DNA of 64,000 nucleotides, taken from Phycisphaerae bacterium. Lineage in GTDB: Bacteria > Planctomycetota > Phycisphaerae > UBA1845 > UTPLA1. The stretch lies in assembly GCA_023150615.1 (NCBI GenBank), contig JAKLKO010000007.1, positions 45,016-109,015 of the forward strand, written 5' to 3'. Below, piece after piece: positions 23,566 to 36,497 of the stretch. The position numbers and the translations under genes are program-made. The notes below the pieces were generated by a model. It was not told the origin of the DNA, did no database searches, and worked only from the letters and a program-made list of their open reading frames with translations. Each line of letters starts with the position of its first letter. The first letter of the stretch is position 1.

Positions 23566-23892
23566 TCAAAAGACCTCGCGAAGCAAGGACGAAAGCTCAA
23601 CCTTTTGTCCCGCAGAAGCGCGCTGAAATGCATGCTGGTATATGTCTTGGCCGATCTTCATGATCGCAACTGCGTTTGCGGCAAAGTTTTCCGCAAGACC
23701 TTCATCTTCCGGCGACAGTCCGTGCTCCCGGAGGGCTATCGACCATGAAAGAAACAGGAGCCGCTGCGGGTCCTCTTCGGGGGCGAGGAAAAGCCGACAA
23801 CAGAAATCTTCGCACGCCTTTCGTGACACAGGGTTCATAACAGCAATAATGCTTTTGATCTCAGATAGTGGTCGAAGGGTCGGCATGATCAT
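23566..23892 (-). CDS. Small hypothetical protein coupled to the kinase-FGE gene
   Basis: The 108-residue ORF starts at 23892 inside the kinase stop (ATGA overlap), so it belongs to the sigma-kinase operon. It is helical (LRPLSEIKSIIAVMNPVSRKACEDF, here broken into two parts in the protein), with a paired cysteine (FCCRLF) and no signal peptide or membrane segment. No family is recognised. Coupled small genes like this may serve as partners of the kinase, but the sequence does not prove it. Confidence 0.65.
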   Translation of the reverse strand: MIMPTLRPLSEIKSIIAVMNPVSRKACEDFCCRLFLAPEEDPQRLLFLSWSIALREHGLSPEDEGLAENFAANAVAIMKIGQDIYQHAFQRASAGQKVELSSLLREVF

Positions 23893-26006
23893 CCTCCCAA
23901 GTACGCGATGCATCGAAACCCGATTCTGTCGTACCGTTCCGACCGCACGGCGTAGCGCGACGACGTCCGCAAATAGAACGGATGGTCTGCCCAGGAACCA
24001 CCACGGCACGGCCGCACGAAGGGCCAATCCTTAGTTCTCACGGCTGGATCACGCCTACCGTTATAGCAGCGCTGCGGTCCGTCGGGTTCGCACCATTCGT
24101 GGACGTTGCCGGCCAGGTCCATCACGCCCAGCGCACTCGCACCCTCGGGATACTCGTAGACCTTCGTCAGCAACTCGAAGCTGTTCGCTTCGTGCGGGTC
24201 GAGCCGCCGGAACTCCTGAAACCACAGATATGCGGGGTCGGGTCCTGGCGACTTGAATGGCGCGAACGCGCGGCCAGCGGCACGTTCAGCGGAATTGGCG
24301 CGATCGTCGTCCCAATCGTCTCCCCACGGGTAGCGCCGATGCGTCCCGCTGCTCGGGTCCCATGAGGCTGCCTTCTCCCACTCCGCCTCGGTCGGCAGGC
24401 GCTTGCGCGCCCAGGCGGCATATGCGCGGGCGTCGTCGTGCGTCACCATGATGACCGGGTAGTCGTCCTGGCCCGGCGGGTAGGTGCGCGTATTGGGGTC
24501 CCAGTTGTAGGCCTCCCCCCACTCGGCATCTACTCGCGGCACCGGATAGTTCGGTACGGTGTCGATGAACTTCTTATAGCGCGCGTTGGTAACCGGGTAC
24601 TTGTCGATCAAGTACGCACAGGTGCGGGCCTCGTGTTCGGGCGCCTCCGCTGGGAGGCATTCGTTTGACCCCATCTGGAACCGTCCGGCCGGTACGAAGA
24701 TCATCTCCGCACCGTCCACGGGCCAAACCCAGGTGTCGCCGGGCCCGGCTTCCTCTAGGCGAAAGTCGTCCAGCGTGAATAGCCGCGGGGCCTTAGCACA
24801 ACGAATCACGCCGTCCGGCTCGTATTCTCCAACGCCCGACCCGCGGAGTCGGACGATTCTCGGACTACGCGGAGCGGCAGAACCGCTCGCGACAATCTCT
24901 GCGAGCTGCTGTTTCAGCGCAGCCGCAGCTGCTGGCCGCTTTCCGGGGTCCTTCTCGAGCAGTCGATGGATGATCTGAACGAGCGCCTTCGGGATGCCGG
25001 CAGCGATTGATTCAAGCGGGATCGCAGGCGTCTCCGTTATCGACCGGATCAGTTGTACGAGATTCAATGCTCCACGCATCTCGAAATACGGACGCCCGGC
25101 GAGCATGAAGTAGATGGTGGCCCCGAACGCATAGATATCCGCTTGCGCGGTAACTTCGTGCCCCAACACCTGCTCCGGCGCCATCCAGATGAGTGTGCCC
25201 GGTTGTGTCCCGGGTTGAGTCGTGGCCCCGGCGTCGGCGGGCCCATGCGGCACAAGGATGATGCCGAGGTCGGCAAGCTTGGCATGCTCTCGGTCGCCCC
25301 CCGTGAAGAGGATGTTGGCGGGCTTGATGTCTCGATGCACGAATCGATGGCTGTGAATCAGGCTCAGCGCGTCGCAAAGACCGCTTGCATGGCGGACGAC
25401 GGATTCCCACGGCTGTGGCCCGCGCTCGCGCACCAGATCGCCAAAGGTCCCGCCGGCCAGGAACTCCATTACGATGAACCCGTCGCCGTCCTTCGGGCAC
25501 TCGGCATCATGAATCGTTACGATGTGTGGGTGCGGGAGGTTGGCGGTCGCAATGATCTCGCGCTCAAACCGACGGCGGTTAGCCGGATCACGATCGAGAA
25601 CGTGGCGGGGTAAGAGCTTGACCGCCACGATGCGGGGCACCTTCCGGTCGTATGCCTGATAGACGTGCGCAAAGCCTCCGGTTCCTTTCAGCCCGGTGAT
25701 CTCATATCGATTCTGGAATACCGACCCGGGCCGGAGCACGCCGTCGTTCGAACATGTGCTACCGACGACATCTGCGAGTTTGCCATCCGCAGCAACGGCG
25801 CTTTGCGTCCGGGTGCCAAGGAGTCGCCGAAATTGACCCTCGTCAGCAAGGAAGGCGTTGATTTCTTTAGCGAATTCAGGATATCGGGCGAGCCATTCGT
25901 CGCGGCTTGGGGCGCGGCCGGCCTCGCGCGCCAGTAGATACTGCGCAATAATTTCGTCGAGCTGCTGGTCACCCGTCGAGTTGTCGTGTGCCTCACGCAT
26001 CGGCAT
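23889..26006 (-). CDS. Ser/Thr protein kinase fused to a formylglycine-generating-enzyme-like domain
   Basis: The 705-residue protein opens with a short helical region, then a Hanks-type kinase domain from about residue 100: GTGGFAHVY glycine loop, VAVKLL lysine, HRDIKPANI catalytic loop, and LADLGI in place of the usual DFG, then an MAPEQ segment. After a linker, residues about 420-705 form an FGE-sulfatase/SUMF1-like domain (VPAGRFQMGSNE, RLPTEAEWEKAA, YPWGDDW, LAGNVHEWCEP, RGGSW). No membrane helix is visible between the domains. This fusion is common in planctomycetes, with the FGE-like part probably a binding module. It lies between an ECF sigma factor and a small gene. Confidence 0.92.
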   Translation of the reverse strand: MPMREAHDNSTGDQQLDEIIAQYLLAREAGRAPSRDEWLARYPEFAKEINAFLADEGQFRRLLGTRTQSAVAADGKLADVVGSTCSNDGVLRPGSVFQNRYEITGLKGTGGFAHVYQAYDRKVPRIVAVKLLPRHVLDRDPANRRRFEREIIATANLPHPHIVTIHDAECPKDGDGFIVMEFLAGGTFGDLVRERGPQPWESVVRHASGLCDALSLIHSHRFVHRDIKPANILFTGGDREHAKLADLGIILVPHGPADAGATTQPGTQPGTLIWMAPEQVLGHEVTAQADIYAFGATIYFMLAGRPYFEMRGALNLVQLIRSITETPAIPLESIAAGIPKALVQIIHRLLEKDPGKRPAAAAALKQQLAEIVASGSAAPRSPRIVRLRGSGVGEYEPDGVIRCAKAPRLFTLDDFRLEEAGPGDTWVWPVDGAEMIFVPAGRFQMGSNECLPAEAPEHEARTCAYLIDKYPVTNARYKKFIDTVPNYPVPRVDAEWGEAYNWDPNTRTYPPGQDDYPVIMVTHDDARAYAAWARKRLPTEAEWEKAASWDPSSGTHRRYPWGDDWDDDRANSAERAAGRAFAPFKSPGPDPAYLWFQEFRRLDPHEANSFELLTKVYEYPEGASALGVMDLAGNVHEWCEPDGPQRCYNGRRDPAVRTKDWPFVRPCRGGSWADHPFYLRTSSRYAVRSERYDRIGFRCIAYLGG

Positions 26007-28062: not shown

Positions 28063-28247
28063 CGCGATCGCAACGGCGCTGGCACGTTTACGTCTGGATC
28101 GTACTGGGACCGTTGATTGCCCTGGGGCTGGTCGCGGCGTTGTCCGCCCGGGTGCCGCCAGCGATCCAGCCGGAGATTCGACCGGCCGCCGGCGCAATCG
28201 ACAATTCAAGCACGGAGGGATCCAGAGTCGTCGAGAGAAGGCCGTGA
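28059..28247 (+). CDS. Small single-helix membrane protein
   Basis: This 62-residue product starts in the previous stop (ATGA). It has a basic N-terminus and one helix (VYVWIVLGPLIALGLVAALSA), then a Pro/Ala-rich outer segment. The next gene starts with a GTG overlapping its last codons. Four-gene coupling suggests the small proteins act with the Rieske fusion. No family is recognised. Confidence 0.6.
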   Translation: MTRSQRRWHVYVWIVLGPLIALGLVAALSARVPPAIQPEIRPAAGAIDNSSTEGSRVVERRP

Positions 28248-29314
28248 GCGTCGGATACGTCAGCGTCCAATGGAACCGTCATAAGCGCATCTACGACGCG
28301 TGCGTCGCGGGCGGGATCGTCCTGTATCTGGGCGTGTTCTTCGCGGCCGGGAAGGCGCTCTACACCGGACGCAACGCGATCAGCGGCGAAATCCTCGCCA
28401 TGCGCGCACTCGCCACGTGCGCCTTCCTGATGCTTAACGTCATATTGTGCATTGGTCCATTGGCGAGACTGGACCGGCGATTTCTCCCGTTGCTTTACAA
28501 CCGCCGTCATTTGGGCGTCGCGACGTTTCTGGTCGCACTCGCACACGCCGCGATCGCGATCGGCTTCTACCACGGCTTCGGAAACGTCAATCCATTCGTC
28601 GCACTGCTGACGAGCAATACGAATTTCACGTCGCTTTCCGCGTTCCCATATCAGACCCTTGGATTGTTCGCTCTGCTCATCCTGTTTCTGATGGCGGCGA
28701 CGAGTCACGACTTCTGGCTCAAGAACCTCGGGGCACCAGCCTGGAAGCGACTGCACATGCTCGTGTACATCGCATACGGGCTGCTCGTCATGCACGTCGC
28801 GCTCGGAATCCTTCAGACGCAGCGGAGCCCGTGGCTGGCGTCGTTGGTCGGCGTCGGTGTGGTCATAGTGGCGACGCTGCATCTGATCGCCGGCCAGCGC
28901 GAGCGCCGGCACGATGAGCGGGGATCGCAGCTCTCGCCGAGAGCGGGCGAGGAATGGGTCGATGTCGGCGCCGTGGACGACATTGCGGACCAACGCGGGT
29001 CCACGGTTACCGTCGGCGCGGGCGAACGCATCGCACTGTTTCGCTACAACGGCTGCGTCTCCGCGACGACGAACGTCTGCGCGCATCAGGGCGGCCCGCT
29101 GGGCGAGGGCAAGATCATCGACGGCTGCATCACGTGCCCGTGGCACGGCTGGCAATATCGGCCGGCCGACGGCCGGTCGCCGCCTCCGTTTGCGGAGAAG
29201 ATCCACACTTACCGCGTACGCGTGGTCGGCCGCCGCATCCAGGTCGATCCGACGCCCCTTCCGCCGGGCACGGCCGTGGAGCCGGCGCGCGTCGAGGAGG
29301 TGCAGAGTGCCTGA
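28244..29314 (+). CDS. Ferric-reductase-like membrane domain fused to a Rieske [2Fe-2S] domain
   Basis: The gene starts with GTG at 28244 and encodes 356 residues. The first 225 form about six helices of the ferric-reductase/cytochrome b type, with histidines in RRHLGVATFLVALAHAA and KRLHMLVYIAYG positioned for haem. The last 120 form a Rieske domain with CAHQGG and CPWHGW as cluster ligands (C-x-H and C-x2-H). The fusion would move electrons between membrane haem and an Fe-S centre. It is co-translated with small membrane proteins before and a membrane-anchored protein after it. Confidence 0.88.
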   Translation: MSVGYVSVQWNRHKRIYDACVAGGIVLYLGVFFAAGKALYTGRNAISGEILAMRALATCAFLMLNVILCIGPLARLDRRFLPLLYNRRHLGVATFLVALAHAAIAIGFYHGFGNVNPFVALLTSNTNFTSLSAFPYQTLGLFALLILFLMAATSHDFWLKNLGAPAWKRLHMLVYIAYGLLVMHVALGILQTQRSPWLASLVGVGVVIVATLHLIAGQRERRHDERGSQLSPRAGEEWVDVGAVDDIADQRGSTVTVGAGERIALFRYNGCVSATTNVCAHQGGPLGEGKIIDGCITCPWHGWQYRPADGRSPPPFAEKIHTYRVRVVGRRIQVDPTPLPPGTAVEPARVEEVQSA

Positions 29315-30086
29315 AACGAACGAGTTCTACGTCGGGTATCTCAAATCGCCACGGACACTCACCGTTTTCCTGGGGTGGGCGATACCGAGCTTGATCGTGG
29401 CGGCACTGGCGATTGGATGGTTGGTGTCGCGGTCGCAGAACGACCCCGGCGACGGTGTTTGGCACCACGAAGCGAACACCCTCGTCGGTCGTGTTGGCGC
29501 GACGCCCTACCCGCTCATCCGTGTTCCGTCGAAGTCTCCGGGCCACGCGGCCGAGACCGTATTGCTGGTTTCAGAAGGAAAGCACGGCGGCGGAGAACGC
29601 GTCGCAGCGCTGGACGGTCGCATCGTCCGCGTGCGCGGAACGATCCTGGAGCGCGACAGTTGCCGCTTGCTTGAACTGGCCCACGGCGACGCGGTGAAGC
29701 CGGACGATTCGCTGACCGCGGCGGACACGGGCCGGCTCGCTGCGCCAATCATCGTCGCGCTCGGGGAAGTCACGCTGCGCGGCGAGATCATCGACCCCAA
29801 GTGCTATTCAGGCGCGATGAAGCCGGGCGAGGGCAAGACGCACAAGGAGTGCGCCACGCTGTGCATCTCCGGCGGCATCCCGCCGATGTTCGTGACCATC
29901 GACGCGGCCGGGCGGCGCAGCTACTACCTGTTGACCGACCCGGACGGTCGAGCGCTGACCGGCGGCGCGCTGCACGACGGGCTCCTGCCCTTCGTCGCCG
30001 ACGTGGTTGAGATTAGGGGCACGCTCGAACGGCGCGACGATCTTCAGGTGCTGCGGGTAGACCTGAAGAGCATCCGGCGGCTCTAG
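29307..30086 (+). CDS. Membrane-anchored protein of the Rieske operon
   Basis: Starting at GTG 29307, with an 8-base overlap, the 259-residue product has an N-terminal helix (TLTVFLGWAIPSLIVAALAIG) and a periplasmic part with two similar beta-rich halves (VRVRGTILERDSCRLLEL and VVEIRGTLERRDDLQVLRV). Between them is GEIIDPKCYSGAMKPGEGK, followed by KECATLCISGGIPPMF. That cysteine-rich part resembles segments found beside Rieske or heme-oxidase redox systems, possibly binding a metal. Exact function is unknown. Confidence 0.75.
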   Translation: MPETNEFYVGYLKSPRTLTVFLGWAIPSLIVAALAIGWLVSRSQNDPGDGVWHHEANTLVGRVGATPYPLIRVPSKSPGHAAETVLLVSEGKHGGGERVAALDGRIVRVRGTILERDSCRLLELAHGDAVKPDDSLTAADTGRLAAPIIVALGEVTLRGEIIDPKCYSGAMKPGEGKTHKECATLCISGGIPPMFVTIDAAGRRSYYLLTDPDGRALTGGALHDGLLPFVADVVEIRGTLERRDDLQVLRVDLKSIRRL

Positions 30087-30206: not shown

Positions 30207-31145
30207 ATGACCAAGACCCTCTGCGTCCTACCCGTGGTACCACTACTTGGCCTGCTCAGCGTCGCGGGAAACGCGGTTGCCGCGCCGAACGACATCTCTG
30301 TCTCTTCCGGCACGAGGACATTTCGACTGTCCGAGGCCCGCGGCAAGTACGTCGCACTGCACTTTCTGCTCAAGACGGACTGCCCGTACTGCCAGATGTA
30401 CGTCGCGGAAACCGTTCGTCGCGCGCCTGAAGTCGCAGGAGTGGTTCACGTATTCCTGAAGCCGGACTCCGAAGAGGAGATCAAGACCTGGTCGGACAAG
30501 CTTCAGCAAGCCGGCATCGCCGTGACGATCTACCGCGACCCGGACGCGAAGCTGGCGGCCGAGTTCAACATCCCGGACGGCTATGCCTTCCACGGACAAT
30601 CCGTTCACTATCCGGCGCTGGTGCTGCTCGATCCGGACGGCCAGGAGGCGTTCCGCTACGTTGGAAAGGACAATACCGACCGGCTGCCATTCGACCGCCT
30701 CGCGCGAAAGATCGCGGAGCTTTCGACATACGCGGCTATCGCGCAATACAATCTGTCCGAAGGCACGCTGGCGCTCGAGGGACATGACCCCGTTGCATAC
30801 TTCGAGTCGGGCAAGCCCCAACCGGGCAAACCCGAGTTCACAAGCCGATATCGCGGCGTCACGTACCGTTTCACGAGCTCAGACAGCCGGGTGAAGTTTG
30901 CTGACAACCCCGAGAAGTACGCTCCGGCGTACGGCGGGTGGTGCGCCACCGCGATGGCCGAAGGCCGCAGGGTCGAGATCGATCCCGGCAACTTCAAGGT
31001 AACGAACGGACGGCTGTTTCTGTTCTACAAGGGCTGGCTCGGCGATGCGCGAAAGGAATGGAACAAGGACGAAGAGAACCTGACCGCGCGGGCGGACGAG
31101 CACTGGCGGAAGACCGCGCCGGCTGACACAAACGAGAGGCGGTGA
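30207..31145 (+). CDS. Secreted peroxiredoxin/thioredoxin-like protein fused to a YHS domain
   Basis: The 312-residue protein has a Sec signal peptide ending around AVAAP (residue 26). Residues 30-170 form an AhpC/thioredoxin-like fold with a CPYC motif (LKTDCPYCQMYV) where a redox-active site is expected. Residues about 180-285 form a YHS-type metal-binding domain (LEGHDPVAYF, YAPAYGGWCATAMAEG, DPGNFKVTNGRLFLFY). YHS domains usually bind metals through Cys and His. The fusion suggests a periplasmic thiol or metal handling role. Five genes follow in tight coupling. Confidence 0.85.
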   Translation: MTKTLCVLPVVPLLGLLSVAGNAVAAPNDISVSSGTRTFRLSEARGKYVALHFLLKTDCPYCQMYVAETVRRAPEVAGVVHVFLKPDSEEEIKTWSDKLQQAGIAVTIYRDPDAKLAAEFNIPDGYAFHGQSVHYPALVLLDPDGQEAFRYVGKDNTDRLPFDRLARKIAELSTYAAIAQYNLSEGTLALEGHDPVAYFESGKPQPGKPEFTSRYRGVTYRFTSSDSRVKFADNPEKYAPAYGGWCATAMAEGRRVEIDPGNFKVTNGRLFLFYKGWLGDARKEWNKDEENLTARADEHWRKTAPADTNERR

Positions 31146-31149
31146 GCCG

Positions 31150-31659
31150 ATGATTGCGGACCAGACACCAGTGACCGTCGACGAGGGCCGTCCAAAGCCT
31201 GCGAACGCAGCGATGTACCCACTGGGCCGCCGCCTCATGATCCTCTGTTGGATCCTCCAAATCGTGACGGCGGCGATCTTGTTTCAGACACTCTTCTTCA
31301 AGTTCACTGGGGCTGAAGAGTCCGTGTACATTTTCACGACGCTCGGCCTGGAGCCGTGGGGTCGGATCGGATCGGGCGTGGCCGAGCTGATCGCGTGCAT
31401 TCTGTTGCTCATCCCGCGAACAGTGCCGCTGGGCGCCCTGCTATCGCTGGGCGTGATCAGCGGTGCTATCATGAGCCACGTGACGAAGCTGGGAATCGTC
31501 GTTAAAGGCGATGACGGATTGCTGTTCGGCCTGGCGCTGGTTGTGTTCGCGTGCAGCGCGGCGATCTTGTGCATTCGGCGGGGACAGCTGGCGTGCATCG
31601 TTCGGACAATCGTGTCGGCGCGAGGTCTCAGCGCCGAAGAGTCGAAGGGTATTCGATGA
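31150..31659 (+). CDS. DoxX-family membrane protein
   Basis: The 169-residue protein has four helices with the DoxX pattern: ILFQTLFFKFTGAEES, then GVAELIACILLLIP and GALLSLGVISGAIMSHV. DoxX-like proteins occur in small redox systems linked to thiol stress. It begins 4 bases after the peroxiredoxin-YHS gene and its stop overlaps the next start (ATGA). This supports a shared membrane redox role. Confidence 0.8.
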   Translation: MIADQTPVTVDEGRPKPANAAMYPLGRRLMILCWILQIVTAAILFQTLFFKFTGAEESVYIFTTLGLEPWGRIGSGVAELIACILLLIPRTVPLGALLSLGVISGAIMSHVTKLGIVVKGDDGLLFGLALVVFACSAAILCIRRGQLACIVRTIVSARGLSAEESKGIR

Positions 31660-32240
31660 CGACAACACTGGACTCACCCGTTGCGATGCAGGCCGTTCCG
31701 CACTTGGCGCAAGACCCCGTTGCACCGCTGATCGGGATGCTGCGGCAGCTCGACAAGCTGCTCGCCGCAACATCAAACGGGCAATACGTGCAGAAGCCGG
31801 TCGGCGTTGTCCCCAGCAGCCTGGGCGGGCACATTCGCCATTGCCTCGACCACGTCGAGGCACTGCTCGTCGGGACGGACACGGGCGAGATCAATTACGA
31901 CCACCGCGAGCGCGGCACGGCGGTCGAAACGGATCGGTTGGCGGCGCGGGTCGTGATCCGTGATCTCGAAGAACGGCTGGCAAGCCTGGATCGCCGCATC
32001 ATCGGCAGGTCGGTCCTCGTGACGGCAATGGTGTCGGGAGACCGCACGTACCTTCGGGCGACATCGACGGTCGGGCGCGAGCTGTTGTTCGTGCTGAGCC
32101 ATACGATCCATCACGATGCGCTGCTGGCGGCGATGTGCCGGACGCTCGGGATTCCGATTCCGGACCGCTTCGGCTACGCGCCGGCGACGATCGCGCATCT
32201 CGAAGAAGCAGAATGTGCACCGTCAGCATCATTCGGATAG
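31656..32240 (+). CDS. DinB-superfamily protein
   Basis: The 194-residue product has a four-helix-bundle pattern with three metal-binding His positions typical of DinB/YfiT proteins: GHIRHCLDHVEAL near residue 55, and LSHTIHHDALLAAM near residue 152. DinB-like proteins use metal and small thiols in transfer reactions. It starts within the DoxX stop and overlaps the next gene by 28 bases, so it is part of the same transcript. Confidence 0.82.
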   Translation: MTTTLDSPVAMQAVPHLAQDPVAPLIGMLRQLDKLLAATSNGQYVQKPVGVVPSSLGGHIRHCLDHVEALLVGTDTGEINYDHRERGTAVETDRLAARVVIRDLEERLASLDRRIIGRSVLVTAMVSGDRTYLRATSTVGRELLFVLSHTIHHDALLAAMCRTLGIPIPDRFGYAPATIAHLEEAECAPSASFG

Positions 32241-32956
32241 GCGCCGGCGCACGGCTGGCCTGCAATCGCGACGAGCTACGGACAAGGCCCGCGGGGCTTC
32301 CACCCGTCATTCGCCGGTTCGGGGCGCGACAGGCCATCATGCCAATTGATCCAGTTTCGGATGGTACATGGATTGCCGTGAACGACGCCGGACTCGCCGC
32401 CGCGCTACTCAATGTCAATCTCGGTCCGGGTAACGGTGGTACAAAGGAATCACCGACATTGAGCCGAGGGACGATCCTTCCCAAATTGATGTTGTGTTCA
32501 ACCCTGGCCGAGGCGAAACGGGTTTGCGTCGCGATAGACCCACGGCAGTATCCACCCTTTCAACTTGCGGTAATCGACGACCGTCGCATCGAGCAGTTCC
32601 GCAGCGACGGCATGGCGCTGCGGAACGACGGCATGCGGCTTGACGATCGCGCGTACATGTTTACATCGTCAGGCCTCGGCGACGCGTTCGTCGAACAACC
32701 GCGGCGCGAGCTATTCGATCAGATTATGACGCCGAGCGGCGACCGGATTGCGCAGCAGGACGCGTTTCATCGGCATTCATGGCCGGACCGCCGGCATTTG
32801 AGCGTGTGCATGGAGCGCGCAGAGGCGCGGACGGTCAGTCACACGGTGATTGACATCGAGCCGGACCGCGTCGTGCTGACGTACGTTCCCGATGCGCCGG
32901 ATCGCGCGCAACCGCTGGCGCCGATCGAGCTTGTCAGACCGGGGGCGAGCCCATGA
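32213..32956 (+). CDS. NRDE-family (TANGO2-like) protein
   Basis: The 247-residue protein begins MCTVSII and has the CNRDELR signature near residue 18 that names the family, followed by NDAGLAAALLNVN. The N-terminal Cys after Met suggests an Ntn-hydrolase-like fold. Eukaryotic TANGO2 is linked to haem trafficking; bacterial function is unsettled. The start at 32213 lies 28 bases inside the DinB gene, and the end overlaps the DedA fusion by 4 bases. Confidence 0.85.
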   Translation: MCTVSIIRIGAGARLACNRDELRTRPAGLPPVIRRFGARQAIMPIDPVSDGTWIAVNDAGLAAALLNVNLGPGNGGTKESPTLSRGTILPKLMLCSTLAEAKRVCVAIDPRQYPPFQLAVIDDRRIEQFRSDGMALRNDGMRLDDRAYMFTSSGLGDAFVEQPRRELFDQIMTPSGDRIAQQDAFHRHSWPDRRHLSVCMERAEARTVSHTVIDIEPDRVVLTYVPDAPDRAQPLAPIELVRPGASP

Positions 32957-34581
32957 GCGTCGTCGGGATCGACCAGTGGTTGCACGCCGCTGTCATCAGC
33001 GCTGCGACGTTCGTCTCCGAGGACGCGACGTGTATCGTGACTGGCTTGCTGATTCGGGCCGGACAGCTCTACTGGGCGGTCGGCCTTGGCGCTTGCGTAT
33101 TCGGCATCTTTCTCGGCGACCTTGGGCTGTGGCTGCTTGGCCGCGTCTTCGGACGGCGTGTGCTTGCATGGAGTTGGGTGCGCGCCCGTTTGCCCCCGAG
33201 TCGCGTGGAGCACTTCGGGCAATGGTTCGAGCGCCGCGGGTGGACGGCCGTGCTGGCGGCCCGGTTCGTGCCAGGAACGCGCCTCCCGGTGTATATCGCG
33301 GCGGGGATTCTCGGGCGCCGTGCCCGTCGGTTTGCGTTGTGGGCCTTTCTGGCCGCTCTCGTCTGGACGCCGGTGCTCGTGTTGTTGGTTGTGGTGCTCG
33401 GTGAAGCCGTGGTTGCGCCGATTCAGCGAGTCTACGGCGTTGGATGGCTCACGTCTACGATTGGGCTGGCGGCGTTGTGGTTCATCGTGCGTGTTGCGCC
33501 GCACTGCGTGACTCCCACCGGCCGCGCGCGACTCTGGGCGGGCGTCCAGCGCATTTGGCGCTGGGAGTTCTGGCCGGCGTGGCTCTTCTACATTCCGCTC
33601 GTCCCCTGGCTCGGCTATCTCGCCGTGCGCTATCGCGGACTGATGACGCCGACGGCCGCGAACCCCGGAATCGTGCCACACGGCGGCGTCGTGGGCGAAT
33701 CGAAGTACGCGATTCTGTCGAAGCTGCCGTCGGAGTGGATCGTGCCCAGTGCCCTCATCGAACCGGCGCCGGTTGCCAAACGTGTCGATGAGCTTCTTCG
33801 CGTCATGGCCGAGCGCGGGTGGGTCTTCCCCTTGATCCTTAAACCCGATGCGGGTCAGCGCGGCGCGGGGCTGCGCCGAGTTTGCGACGCGGCCGCCGCC
33901 GCGCGCTACTTCGACGAGAATCTGCGGGCCGTTCTCGCGCAAAGTTATCATCCCGGACCGTACGAGGCCGGCGTCTTTTATTACCGAATGCCTGTTGAGC
34001 AAAGCGGCCACATCTTCTCGATTACAGACAAGCAGTTCCCCGCGCTCGTGGGCGACGGAGTATCGACAATCGAATCGCTAATCTGGCGGCACGCCCGACT
34101 GCGCATGCAGGCGGCCACGTTCCTGGCGCGGATGGACGGGCAGGCGGAGTCGATTCTGCGGCGGGGCGAGACAGTGCCGCTGACGATCGCAGGGAACCAC
34201 TGTCAAGGGACGCTGTTTCGCGACGGCTCGCACCTGATCACGCCGGCTTTGACGGATTCAATCGACGCCATCGCCCGACAGTTTGAAGGCTTCTTTTTCG
34301 GCCGCTTCGACCTCCGCTACAGCGATCCGAACGCGTTCAAAGCCGGTCGCGGCTTCGCCATCATAGAGTTGAACGGCGTTGCGTCAGAATCCACGAACCT
34401 GTACGATCCGTCGTGGTCGCTGCTGCGCGCCTACCGCGTGCTGTTTCGCCAATGGTCGATTCTTTTTGAGATTGGTGATCGAAATCGGCGCCTGGGTCAT
34501 CGTGCTTCGGCCCTTACGCGAGTCATCACTGATGCACGCGCCTATTACCGGGAGCGCCCCATGATGCTGTTGGCGGATTGA
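32953..34581 (+). CDS. DedA-family membrane domain fused to an ATP-grasp-like domain
   Basis: The 542-residue protein has about five helices in residues 1-210 with DedA signatures (FLGDLGLWLLGR and AARFVPGTRLPVYIAAG). Residues about 270-540 resemble an ATP-grasp ligase: LILKPDAGQRGAGLRRV as nucleotide loop, LVGDGVSTIESL, GNHCQGTLFRDGS, and FGRFDLRYSDPN leading to FAIIELNGVAS, where Glu and Asn would bind magnesium. DedA proteins flip undecaprenyl phosphate or phospholipids. The fusion could couple lipid transport to modification of a lipid-linked substrate, which is inference. It closes the operon from 30207. Confidence 0.85.
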   Translation: MSVVGIDQWLHAAVISAATFVSEDATCIVTGLLIRAGQLYWAVGLGACVFGIFLGDLGLWLLGRVFGRRVLAWSWVRARLPPSRVEHFGQWFERRGWTAVLAARFVPGTRLPVYIAAGILGRRARRFALWAFLAALVWTPVLVLLVVVLGEAVVAPIQRVYGVGWLTSTIGLAALWFIVRVAPHCVTPTGRARLWAGVQRIWRWEFWPAWLFYIPLVPWLGYLAVRYRGLMTPTAANPGIVPHGGVVGESKYAILSKLPSEWIVPSALIEPAPVAKRVDELLRVMAERGWVFPLILKPDAGQRGAGLRRVCDAAAAARYFDENLRAVLAQSYHPGPYEAGVFYYRMPVEQSGHIFSITDKQFPALVGDGVSTIESLIWRHARLRMQAATFLARMDGQAESILRRGETVPLTIAGNHCQGTLFRDGSHLITPALTDSIDAIARQFEGFFFGRFDLRYSDPNAFKAGRGFAIIELNGVASESTNLYDPSWSLLRAYRVLFRQWSILFEIGDRNRRLGHRASALTRVITDARAYYRERPMMLLAD

Positions 34582-34607: not shown

Positions 34608-36497
34608 TCACGAGCAGCGGCCGGACATATGATCGGCGTCGGTTGCCCTGAGGTGAAAGTCCACGAAGGTCGCCGCCCCTTCCTTGCCGAGATAGCGATT
34701 GAGAATCGACCGCTCGACCGTCGTCAAGTCGACCAGCAATAACCCGTCCAGCACGTCGCCGAAATCCGGATCGACGTTGAACCCCAGAAGCTTGGCGTTG
34801 AGCTTCAGGTATTGTCGCAGCAGAACCGGTACGCTGCGGCGGTTCGACTCAATTTCGCCGATCAATTCCTCGACATCCGCGACGTCGGTCACCAGCGTCG
34901 CCAGGCGGCGCTCGTCGGCATCGCGGAACCGCTGCACTCTCGGCGGAGTTCTCGGATGGACGAGCGCGGCCAGCTCTTGATTGAAGCTGTGGGCTTTCAG
35001 GAACGCCATCAGGAGCTGCTTCGTCATCGATTGAAACTCATCGCTGATGCTCACCGCGCCGAACAGCCGACGGTAGTGTGGGTGCTGAGCGACGAACCGG
35101 CCGATTCCCTTCCAAAGCAGAAGCAGCGGCGAGTAGTCGCGCTGGTATTCGGGAATTACGAACGAGCGCCCCAGCTCCAGGGCCGGGTCGAGCTGCTTCA
35201 GCAGCCGCATACGATAGTTGAACAGCGTGCTCGTATAGAGGCCCGCTGGGCCGAAGCGGCTGAGCAGTACGTCTGTCTGGCCCATGCGATACGCGCCGAC
35301 GATGTGCTGACGCTCCGCGTTCCAAACGAACAGGTGCAGGTAGTGCTCGTCGAACCAGTCCAGGTCGATCTCACGGCCGGTGCCCTCGCCGACCAGACGA
35401 AAGGTAGATTCTCGTAGTCGGCCGATCTCGCGCAGGACGTACGGCAGTTGCCGAGCATCGCCGTAGTGCACGCACAGCACGCCACTCGCCGCCAGGCACT
35501 GCGGGGCAGGCAACGCCGCGATCTCGGTCGCAAGCAGGTCCGGCGGCGTCGCGTCGATCACCGGCCGGGGCGCGGCGGCCGGTGCGGCAGCCGCCTTTGC
35601 TGCCGGGTGTGCCGCCGATCTCGCCGCACTGCGCCCTTTCAAGATGTACGTGCGGACTCGCAGGTACTCGGTCATCTGTGCGTCAGCAAACCGCTCGCAA
35701 TTCGACTCGGCGGCATCGATCAAATCAAATCGCGCCAGTCGAGCGTACGGAATAACTGAGCCGATCTGCGCGCGGACGCGCCGGCCGCGCTTCGCTAACA
35801 GTTCGCGCGGCAGCATCGCCGTGCGCAACCGCGGATGTAGCAACCCGACGACCTGAAACAGCCGACTGTTAAAGCCGTCGAAGTGCATAGGCAGCACGGC
35901 CGCGTTCGTGACACGGATCAGCCGCCCGAGCGACTCTGCCCAGGGCGGATCGGTGATGCAGCCGCGTCGCCAGGTGAGATGAGAGACCTCTCCGGCTGGA
36001 AATACGCCCAGCGCGCCACCAGCGCGAACCCAGCGAACCGCCGCCCTCATCGCACTGAGATTTCGGGTAGTCGCATTGGGCCCACCGAACGGATCGACGA
36101 AGAAACACAAATCGCGCATCTCGGGAATAGCGCGCAGTAGATAGTTTGCCAGCAGCCGCGCATCCGGCCGCACGCGTTGAAGGAGCGCCGCCAGAATCAA
36201 CCCGTCGAGGCCGCCGAATGGGTGATTGGCGACGACGATCAGCGGGCCCGAGATCGGAATCCGGCGGAGGTCCTCGTCGGAGAATTCGACCGCAACACCC
36301 AATGCGCGCAGCGACCGTTCGCAGAAGGGTTCGTCGACCGGGAATGTCTGGGTCTGGGCGTAAATCGCGTTGAGCGTTGGAAACGACAGTGCCCGTTCGC
36401 AAGCGCTGCGCATGGCTTGTGAAATCAATTTGGGAAACGACGAGAACGCGCCCGCGCGCAGCGCGAATGGATCAGCCGTGCCCACTCGAGTCGTCAT
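34608..36497 (-). CDS. olsF: Bifunctional ornithine-lipid synthase (O- and N-acyltransferase)
   Basis: The 629-residue protein has an N-terminal PlsC-like acyltransferase with NHPFGGLDGL (His92 and Asp98) and FPAGEVSHL near residue 165. After an Ala-rich linker (about 300-325) comes an OlsB-like GNAT domain: RLVGEGTGREID, HIVGAYRMGQTDVL, GRSFVIPEYQRDY and GAVSISDEFQSMTKQLL. The order matches OlsF, which first N-acylates ornithine and then O-acylates the product. Ornithine lipids change the membrane under phosphate limitation or stress. The gene follows the double-glyoxalase gene by 7 bases. Another acyl-amino-acid head group cannot be excluded. Confidence 0.82.
   Translation of the reverse strand: MTTRVGTADPFALRAGAFSSFPKLISQAMRSACERALSFPTLNAIYAQTQTFPVDEPFCERSLRALGVAVEFSDEDLRRIPISGPLIVVANHPFGGLDGLILAALLQRVRPDARLLANYLLRAIPEMRDLCFFVDPFGGPNATTRNLSAMRAAVRWVRAGGALGVFPAGEVSHLTWRRGCITDPPWAESLGRLIRVTNAAVLPMHFDGFNSRLFQVVGLLHPRLRTAMLPRELLAKRGRRVRAQIGSVIPYARLARFDLIDAAESNCERFADAQMTEYLRVRTYILKGRSAARSAAHPAAKAAAAPAAAPRPVIDATPPDLLATEIAALPAPQCLAASGVLCVHYGDARQLPYVLREIGRLRESTFRLVGEGTGREIDLDWFDEHYLHLFVWNAERQHIVGAYRMGQTDVLLSRFGPAGLYTSTLFNYRMRLLKQLDPALELGRSFVIPEYQRDYSPLLLLWKGIGRFVAQHPHYRRLFGAVSISDEFQSMTKQLLMAFLKAHSFNQELAALVHPRTPPRVQRFRDADERRLATLVTDVADVEELIGEIESNRRSVPVLLRQYLKLNAKLLGFNVDPDFGDVLDGLLLVDLTTVERSILNRYLGKEGAATFVDFHLRATDADHMSGRCS

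Follow-up and report, generated by a model that had tools for sequence, protein, structure and literature searches.

A DedA–ATP-grasp fusion protein and its genomic tie to acyloxyacyl-aminolipid synthesis in Planctomycetota

The window analyzed here, a 64,000-nucleotide stretch of DNA from a Phycisphaerae bacterium (GenBank contig JAKLKO010000007.1), encodes a protein in which a DedA-family (VTT) membrane domain is followed on the same chain by a predicted ATP-grasp ligase domain. The genomic tie between this fusion and the synthesis of acyloxyacyl aminolipids is firm. The fusion is probably a membrane-tethered ATP-grasp carboxylate-amine ligase and a DedA-family lipid transporter combined in one polypeptide, serving the metabolism of acyloxyacyl aminolipids of the ornithine-lipid type. 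Its partnership with Ols proteins in two phyla points to a route, so far undescribed, by which membrane lipids built on amino acids are modified; in the open-access literature searched, we found no description of a DedA/ATP-grasp module or of its tie to ornithine lipids.

Reading frame and domain architecture

The reading frame of the fusion gene is exact at 32953–34581 on the forward strand (+) and yields a product of 542 residues. The DedA/VTT membrane domain spans residues ~1–190 (32953–33522, +), and the ATP-grasp domain residues ~205–515 (33565–34497, +). An AlphaFold2 model of the 542-residue chain built with 46 homologues has a mean pLDDT of 90.3 and a pTM of 0.75; the family profile and the conservation analysis draw on 46 relatives. 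A first-pass annotation of the DNA had proposed that a DedA domain is joined here to an ATP-grasp ligase-like domain, a reading borne out by the open reading frame, the Pfam VTT match, the AlphaFold2 model, and the structural alignment. Homologues with 50–74% identity occur in 13 further genomes of the same order and are full-length and free of internal stops in 12 of them. One copy (G056:C134:1635-3379, locus L022) is broken into two frames that cover residues 6–339 and 350–542, because of a frameshift or else a mistake in the assembly. The DedA and ATP-grasp domains also remain fused in other classes of Planctomycetota. With full-length homologues in 12 genomes and the same pair of domains on one chain in these other classes, the fusion is not a chance event.

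The DedA half

Pfam VTT_dom (PF09335) matches residues 30–146 of the fusion with an E-value of 1.8e-16 and 61.2 bits, exceeding the gathering score of 33.9, and 41 of the 46 relatives match the same model. The conserved positions are E23-D24, D56, and the stretch R104-x2-PG-x-R110-x-P112. Among relatives that have the respective column of the VTT domain, R104, P107, G108, and R110 are invariant (41/41), D56 is kept in 41 of 42, and the E23-D24 acidic pair is found in 29 of the 32 sequences of set A2. Canonical DedA proteins contain an acid after a conserved Glu, in the motif PG[D/E]. The canonical acid following the Glu is not evident in the DedA subfamily to which the fusion belongs; since this second canonical acid is not evident, lipid transport by the DedA half is not to be assumed. 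Among the NCBI models, the UptA transporters come nearest to the DedA half, yet far under their cut-offs, and identity with the undecaprenyl-phosphate transporter UptA was ruled out (38.9 bits versus the 250 bits of the NCBIfam equivalog). Positive charges are concentrated in loops 62–92, 115–124, and 181–205, which precede the ATP-grasp domain, a distribution consistent with a topology in which this domain would reside in the cytoplasm.

The ATP-grasp half

When the window protein was searched alone, Pfam returned no match in the C-terminal half and no ATP-grasp model; the single-sequence clue was a weak NCBIfam hit to cyanophycin synthetase (TIGR02068, residues 274–474, E 6.8e-5). The ATP-grasp domain was therefore detected from the family profile and the structure, not from Pfam on the window protein. 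The profile of the 46 relatives matches solved cyanophycin synthetases with a best E-value of 2e-8, and 17 of the 46 individually match the Pfam RimK ATP-grasp model. Foldseek places cyanophycin synthetase (E 5e-9) and a bifunctional glutathione synthetase (E 1e-8) at the top of the matches to the AlphaFold2 model. Queried with residues 206–514, that is, the ATP-grasp half, VIA-align 2 gives cyanophycin synthetase 7wae_A as its best match (Z 17.1, rmsd 4.2, 269 aligned residues, model residues 210–506), and ranks RimK, LysX/ArgX, Ddl, and glutathione synthetase below it.

The residues of the putative active site are strongly conserved. K251, K297 (which comes with the glycine-rich stretch KPDAGQRGxG), G304, Q330, E338, and K360 are invariant in all 46 relatives; for R451, D453, E472, and N474 the count is 45 of 46, the remaining sequence having a gap. 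The GRfD...ELNG stretch, which is the metal-ligand region, aligns with the corresponding region of cyanophycin synthetase in the profile alignment, and we take these residues individually to fill the ATP- and metal-binding roles of their counterparts in Ddl. As judged from the alignment, the C-terminal domain keeps the predicted ATP-binding lysines, the glycine-rich loop, and the Asp/Glu/Asn metal ligands, and sequence and model together make it a predicted ATP-grasp enzyme that would act as a ligase. The earlier proposal hinged on intact ATP-binding residues and on the C-terminal fold; the former are conserved and the latter is that of an ATP-grasp protein.

Neither of the two named enzymes closest at hand describes the domain. 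Identity with cyanophycin synthetase was rejected at 21.1 versus 850 bits, the match being limited to residues 274–474 and no Mur-ligase half being found, and identity with Ddl was rejected on scores. Two proteobacterial members of the ATP-grasp family (L100 6926-8038 and L101 6968-8053) are annotated as D-alanine--D-alanine ligase, a label that the present comparison does not support.

The gene row in the window

The fusion is the last gene of a tightly packed row on the forward strand, in which the final three junctions overlap by ATGA or more. The row opens with an AhpC/TSA-redoxin domain fused to a YHS-like domain (30207–31145, +; Pfam AhpC-TSA E 2.2e-13; YHS E 2.3e-6, with 27.9 bits below the cut-off of 30.3) and continues with a DoxX-like membrane protein (31150–31659, +; Pfam DoxX_2 E 3.2e-7), a DinB-family protein (31656–32240, +; Pfam DinB_2 E 5.3e-6) that shares an ATGA overlap with the DoxX gene, and a TANGO2/NRDE-family protein (32213–32956, +; Pfam TANGO2 E 3.1e-8) whose gene shares the 4 bp ATGA with the start of the fusion gene. 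The TANGO2-family product begins with Met-Cys-Thr. A Met/Val-Cys start is expected of an N-terminal-Cys hydrolase, and 34 of 36 TANGO2 homologues have an M/V-C-T start together with an RDE motif. DinB neighbours the fusion in 33 of 47 loci and TANGO2 in 32 of 47, in a count that left out some large clusters representing antisense shadow frames.

Convergent with the fusion lies a gene for a bifunctional aminolipid synthase (34608–36497, −) with both an acyltransferase (Acyltransf_2) and a GNAT (Acetyltransf_5) domain. Its best NCBIfam match is OlsF (E 4e-115), and we call it OlsF-like because its 385 bits fall under the NCBI equivalog cut-off of 620. The first-pass annotation had simply called this neighbour olsF: the adjacency and the two domains hold, but the full name exceeds what the score allows.

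Association with aminolipid synthesis in Planctomycetota

The association was examined at two taxonomic depths. At the level of the order, 61 relatives were sampled, 14 of which encode the fusion (the genome of the window and 13 others). An OlsF-like gene is present in all 14 versus 2 of the 47 others (Fisher 5e-12, a value that ignores relatedness). In 20,000 within-family permutations, the overlap between fusion and OlsF-like gene reached a maximum of 11 and never the observed 14, so the association holds within families. The quick ATP-grasp tree of the order interleaves family codes f1, f4, and f8, a mixing of families that suggests the cluster may have moved horizontally within the order.

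At the level of the phylum, the ATP-grasp part is found in 50 of 392 genomes. Where a fetched locus has its N-terminal half complete, this part is fused to DedA, except in a subset of family f9. An OlsB-type GNAT domain occurs in 40 of these 50 genomes versus 30 of the 342 others (Fisher values again ignore relatedness). Eight of the ten fusion genomes without this domain belong to family f9, and the other two are fragmented assemblies of 84–86% completeness. In a second planctomycete clade, homologues of OlsB and OlsA adjoin the fusion in 14 loci, mostly directly upstream and on the same strand; their best NCBIfam matches are OlsB and OlsA (1e-33 to 1e-44), under the equivalog cut-offs.

Relatives in Proteobacteria

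A tblastn search of plasmid records revealed relatives in Alpha-, Beta-, and Gammaproteobacteria, and the proteobacterial ATP-grasp sequences form a group set apart with strong support in a quick tree. Vibrio sp. THAF191d and Photobacterium sp. GJ3 carry separate genes in the order VTT, ATP-grasp, DinB, TANGO2, YHS, DoxX, and OlsF. The DoxX proteins of the window and of the Vibrio cluster are 44% identical over 121 aa, and the redoxin-YHS protein of the window and the Vibrio YHS protein share 32% identity (E 2e-22). The gene order in Salinivibrio is VTT, ATP-grasp, DinB, and NRDE. In Paracoccus denitrificans PD1222 (L106 7920-10611), the adjacent genes PDEN_RS24485, RS25810, and RS24475 separately encode ATP-grasp, alpha/beta-hydrolase, and VTT proteins, respectively, which correspond to the parts of a triple fusion found in planctomycetes. 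Only 4 bp lie between the ATP-grasp gene and OlsB in Variovorax. Among the plasmid copies, Azospirillum has VTT and ATP-grasp fused and Komagataeibacter has ATP-grasp alone, both with no recognizable aminolipid neighbour; no Ols gene lies within 7–8 kb of the Salinivibrio, Azospirillum, Komagataeibacter, or Paracoccus copies. The family profile was also run against viral contigs, where no relative turned up. The pairing of the fusion with olsF, which had made the first-pass proposal attractive, is thus sustained by the co-occurrence in the order of the window, by the same pairing in Vibrionaceae, and by olsB-olsA operons elsewhere.

These gene neighbourhoods bear on a reading in which the fusion serves undecaprenyl-phosphate recycling, peptide-stem chemistry, or the like, with the ols genes as nothing but frequent neighbours. 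Ddl-type ATP-grasp enzymes act in the cell wall, and the nearness of the DedA part to UptA, though far under the cut-offs, points the same way. The association with OlsF or OlsB, however, is kept in two phyla, with two Ols routes, in rearranged gene orders, and within families, and we regard an envelope role of this kind as very unlikely, the least probable of the explanations considered. A role of the fusion in aminolipid metabolism is preferred.

A third domain and family f9

In 24 of the 47 fetched fusion loci, an additional alpha/beta-hydrolase domain precedes the DedA domain at the N-terminus. The predicted structure of this three-domain form has a mean pLDDT of 88.5, its first domain matches esterase-type hydrolases, and the triad Ser146-Asp250-His277 is conserved in all 23 aligned members. 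The hydrolase domain is preceded by a basic N-terminus and then a hydrophobic (signal) anchor. This arrangement, together with the positive loops before the ATP-grasp domain, would place the hydrolase outside and the ATP-grasp domain inside the cytoplasm.

A subset of family f9 (L088, L093, L095, and L096) has lost the DedA core or has it in degenerate form, while the hydrolase is kept and the ATP-grasp residues are intact; the neighbourhoods of these four members yielded neither DinB nor TANGO2 nor Ols genes. Carriers of family f9 retain the hydrolase and ATP-grasp domains, and no OlsF or OlsB homologue was found in them. The lipid source may therefore not always be OlsF or OlsB, or transport may be dispensable.

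Two further explanations take their support partly from f9. According to the main rival, the ATP-grasp domain itself would link a free fatty acid to an amino acid through the N-acyl bond, and the alpha/beta-hydrolase would be an OlsI-like O-acyltransferase, making the fusion another aminolipid synthase. A planctomycete ornithine lipid is indeed made in this manner in Singulisphaera, where OlsH is a GH3-type ATP-dependent amide synthetase and OlsI an acyltransferase of alpha/beta-hydrolase fold (PMC12493201), and f9 holds hydrolase and ATP-grasp domains without OlsF or OlsB. The likeness to the fusion system lies in the planctomycete host, the ATP-dependent amide synthesis, and the use of an alpha/beta-hydrolase-fold enzyme in aminolipid formation, the hydrolases being likened by fold class; in contrast, OlsH is an adenylating GH3 enzyme rather than an ATP-grasp protein, and no DedA protein is reported with it. 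A second synthase would be redundant in nearly all other fusion genomes, which already have OlsF or OlsB/OlsA; the hydrolase sits behind a signal anchor, probably outside the cytoplasm and away from acyl-CoA and ACP; and the two-domain form does without the hydrolase. We therefore hold a synthase function to be improbable.

Only slightly less probable is that the ATP-grasp domain would join soluble amino acids to a dipeptide, which OlsF or OlsB would then acylate, DedA being a mere membrane anchor. Relatives of Ddl and RimK, whose folds match the ATP-grasp half, use soluble or protein substrates, and some f9 members have lost the DedA core with the ATP-grasp domain intact. Yet each of the 41 members whose VTT domain is intact keeps the DedA motif residues, and Vibrionaceae and Paracoccus retain VTT nearby as a gene of its own, which would be needless for an anchor. 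A ligase coupled to lipid transport remains our preferred reading.

Proposed working of the fusion

We infer the chemistry, substrate, product, topology, transport, and order of steps of the preferred system as follows. First, OlsF, or OlsB with OlsA, would N-acylate an amino acid and so produce the lipid on the cytoplasmic side of the membrane. Second, the cytoplasmic ATP-grasp domain would phosphorylate a carboxylate (most probably this lipid's free alpha-carboxylate) and couple it to an amine, such as an amino acid or similar compound, to give an extended headgroup. Third, the DedA domain would carry the substrate or the product across the inner membrane. Fourth, TANGO2 (with its N-terminal-Cys hydrolase fold), DinB, and any alpha/beta-hydrolase domain may trim or remodel the lipid. 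In cyanophycin synthetase, the ATP-grasp half uses a free C-terminal carboxylate as the site to which it attaches an amino acid. Amide formation on the aminolipid is proposed because the ATP-grasp domain is nearest to the cyanophycin synthetases, because the fusion co-occurs with Ols genes, and because clusters are shared between two phyla.

A more ambitious version, which we put forward tentatively and consider somewhat less likely to be right than wrong, is that of a trans-membrane aminolipid-processing enzyme. Here, an outside hydrolase, DedA, and an inside ATP-grasp domain, combined on a single chain or, in Proteobacteria, encoded side by side, might make and export a headgroup-extended aminolipid (lipodipeptide- or taurine-ornithine-like) that has not yet been described chemically, and DinB, TANGO2, YHS, and DoxX proteins might carry out further steps.

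Relation to known systems

Each part of the fusion system belongs to a known kind, and MprF provides a precedent for the concept. MprF combines a lysyl-phosphatidylglycerol synthase and a flippase on one chain, adding an amino acid to a membrane lipid and flipping the product; the likeness, which is one of analogy only, lies in the pairing of such an enzyme with a flipping domain in one chain. MprF differs in its use of aminoacyl-tRNA, a GNAT-like synthase domain, and an unrelated membrane domain, in contrast to the ATP-grasp and DedA domains of the window fusion. The ATP-grasp (G) domain of CphA1 is the best structural and profile match to the fusion, and the match extends to the GDG, GRfD, and ExN motif regions, but no Mur-ligase half was found in the fusion, and its ATP-grasp domain is joined to a membrane transporter and tied to lipid genes. 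If the proposed working is true, the fusion would represent a second synthase-plus-flippase design beside MprF and would give a biochemical context to TANGO2- and DinB-family proteins.

Chemistry that extends the headgroup exists, since taurine-ornithine and serine-glycine headgroups are listed among the acyloxyacyl aminolipids (PMC12493201). The taurine-ornithine lipid of Gluconobacter and the serine-glycine lipids would need an amide-forming step of the kind proposed here. We know of no enzyme or ligase assigned to either headgroup extension, and this gene family is a concrete and testable candidate ligase for headgroup-extended aminolipids. In Vibrio cholerae, the proven ornithine-lipid synthase VCA0646 (OlsF) is encoded by the last gene of the four-gene operon vca0649-0646 (PMC12186959), which is activated by HapR and whose overexpression can drive cell death (PMC11573629). 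OlsF is likewise the last gene in the cluster of another Vibrio (L107), a likeness of OlsF position alone. The present findings could be relevant to operons for ornithine lipids, among them vca0646-0649 with its role in quorum-sensing-controlled cell death (PMC11573629).

Other genes of the window

Two further arrangements lie upstream of the row. A Rieske and ferric-reductase-like membrane protein (28244–29314, +), identified by Pfam and present in 11 loci, is followed by one that contains a CATLCISGGIPP motif; the pair occupies 28244–30086 in the window and is found upstream of the cluster in ~11 loci. At 23889–26006, a by-eye reading suggests a 705-aa protein with a Ser/Thr kinase-like domain and a formylglycine-enzyme-like (SUMF1) domain, encoded beside a gene for an ECF-like sigma factor.
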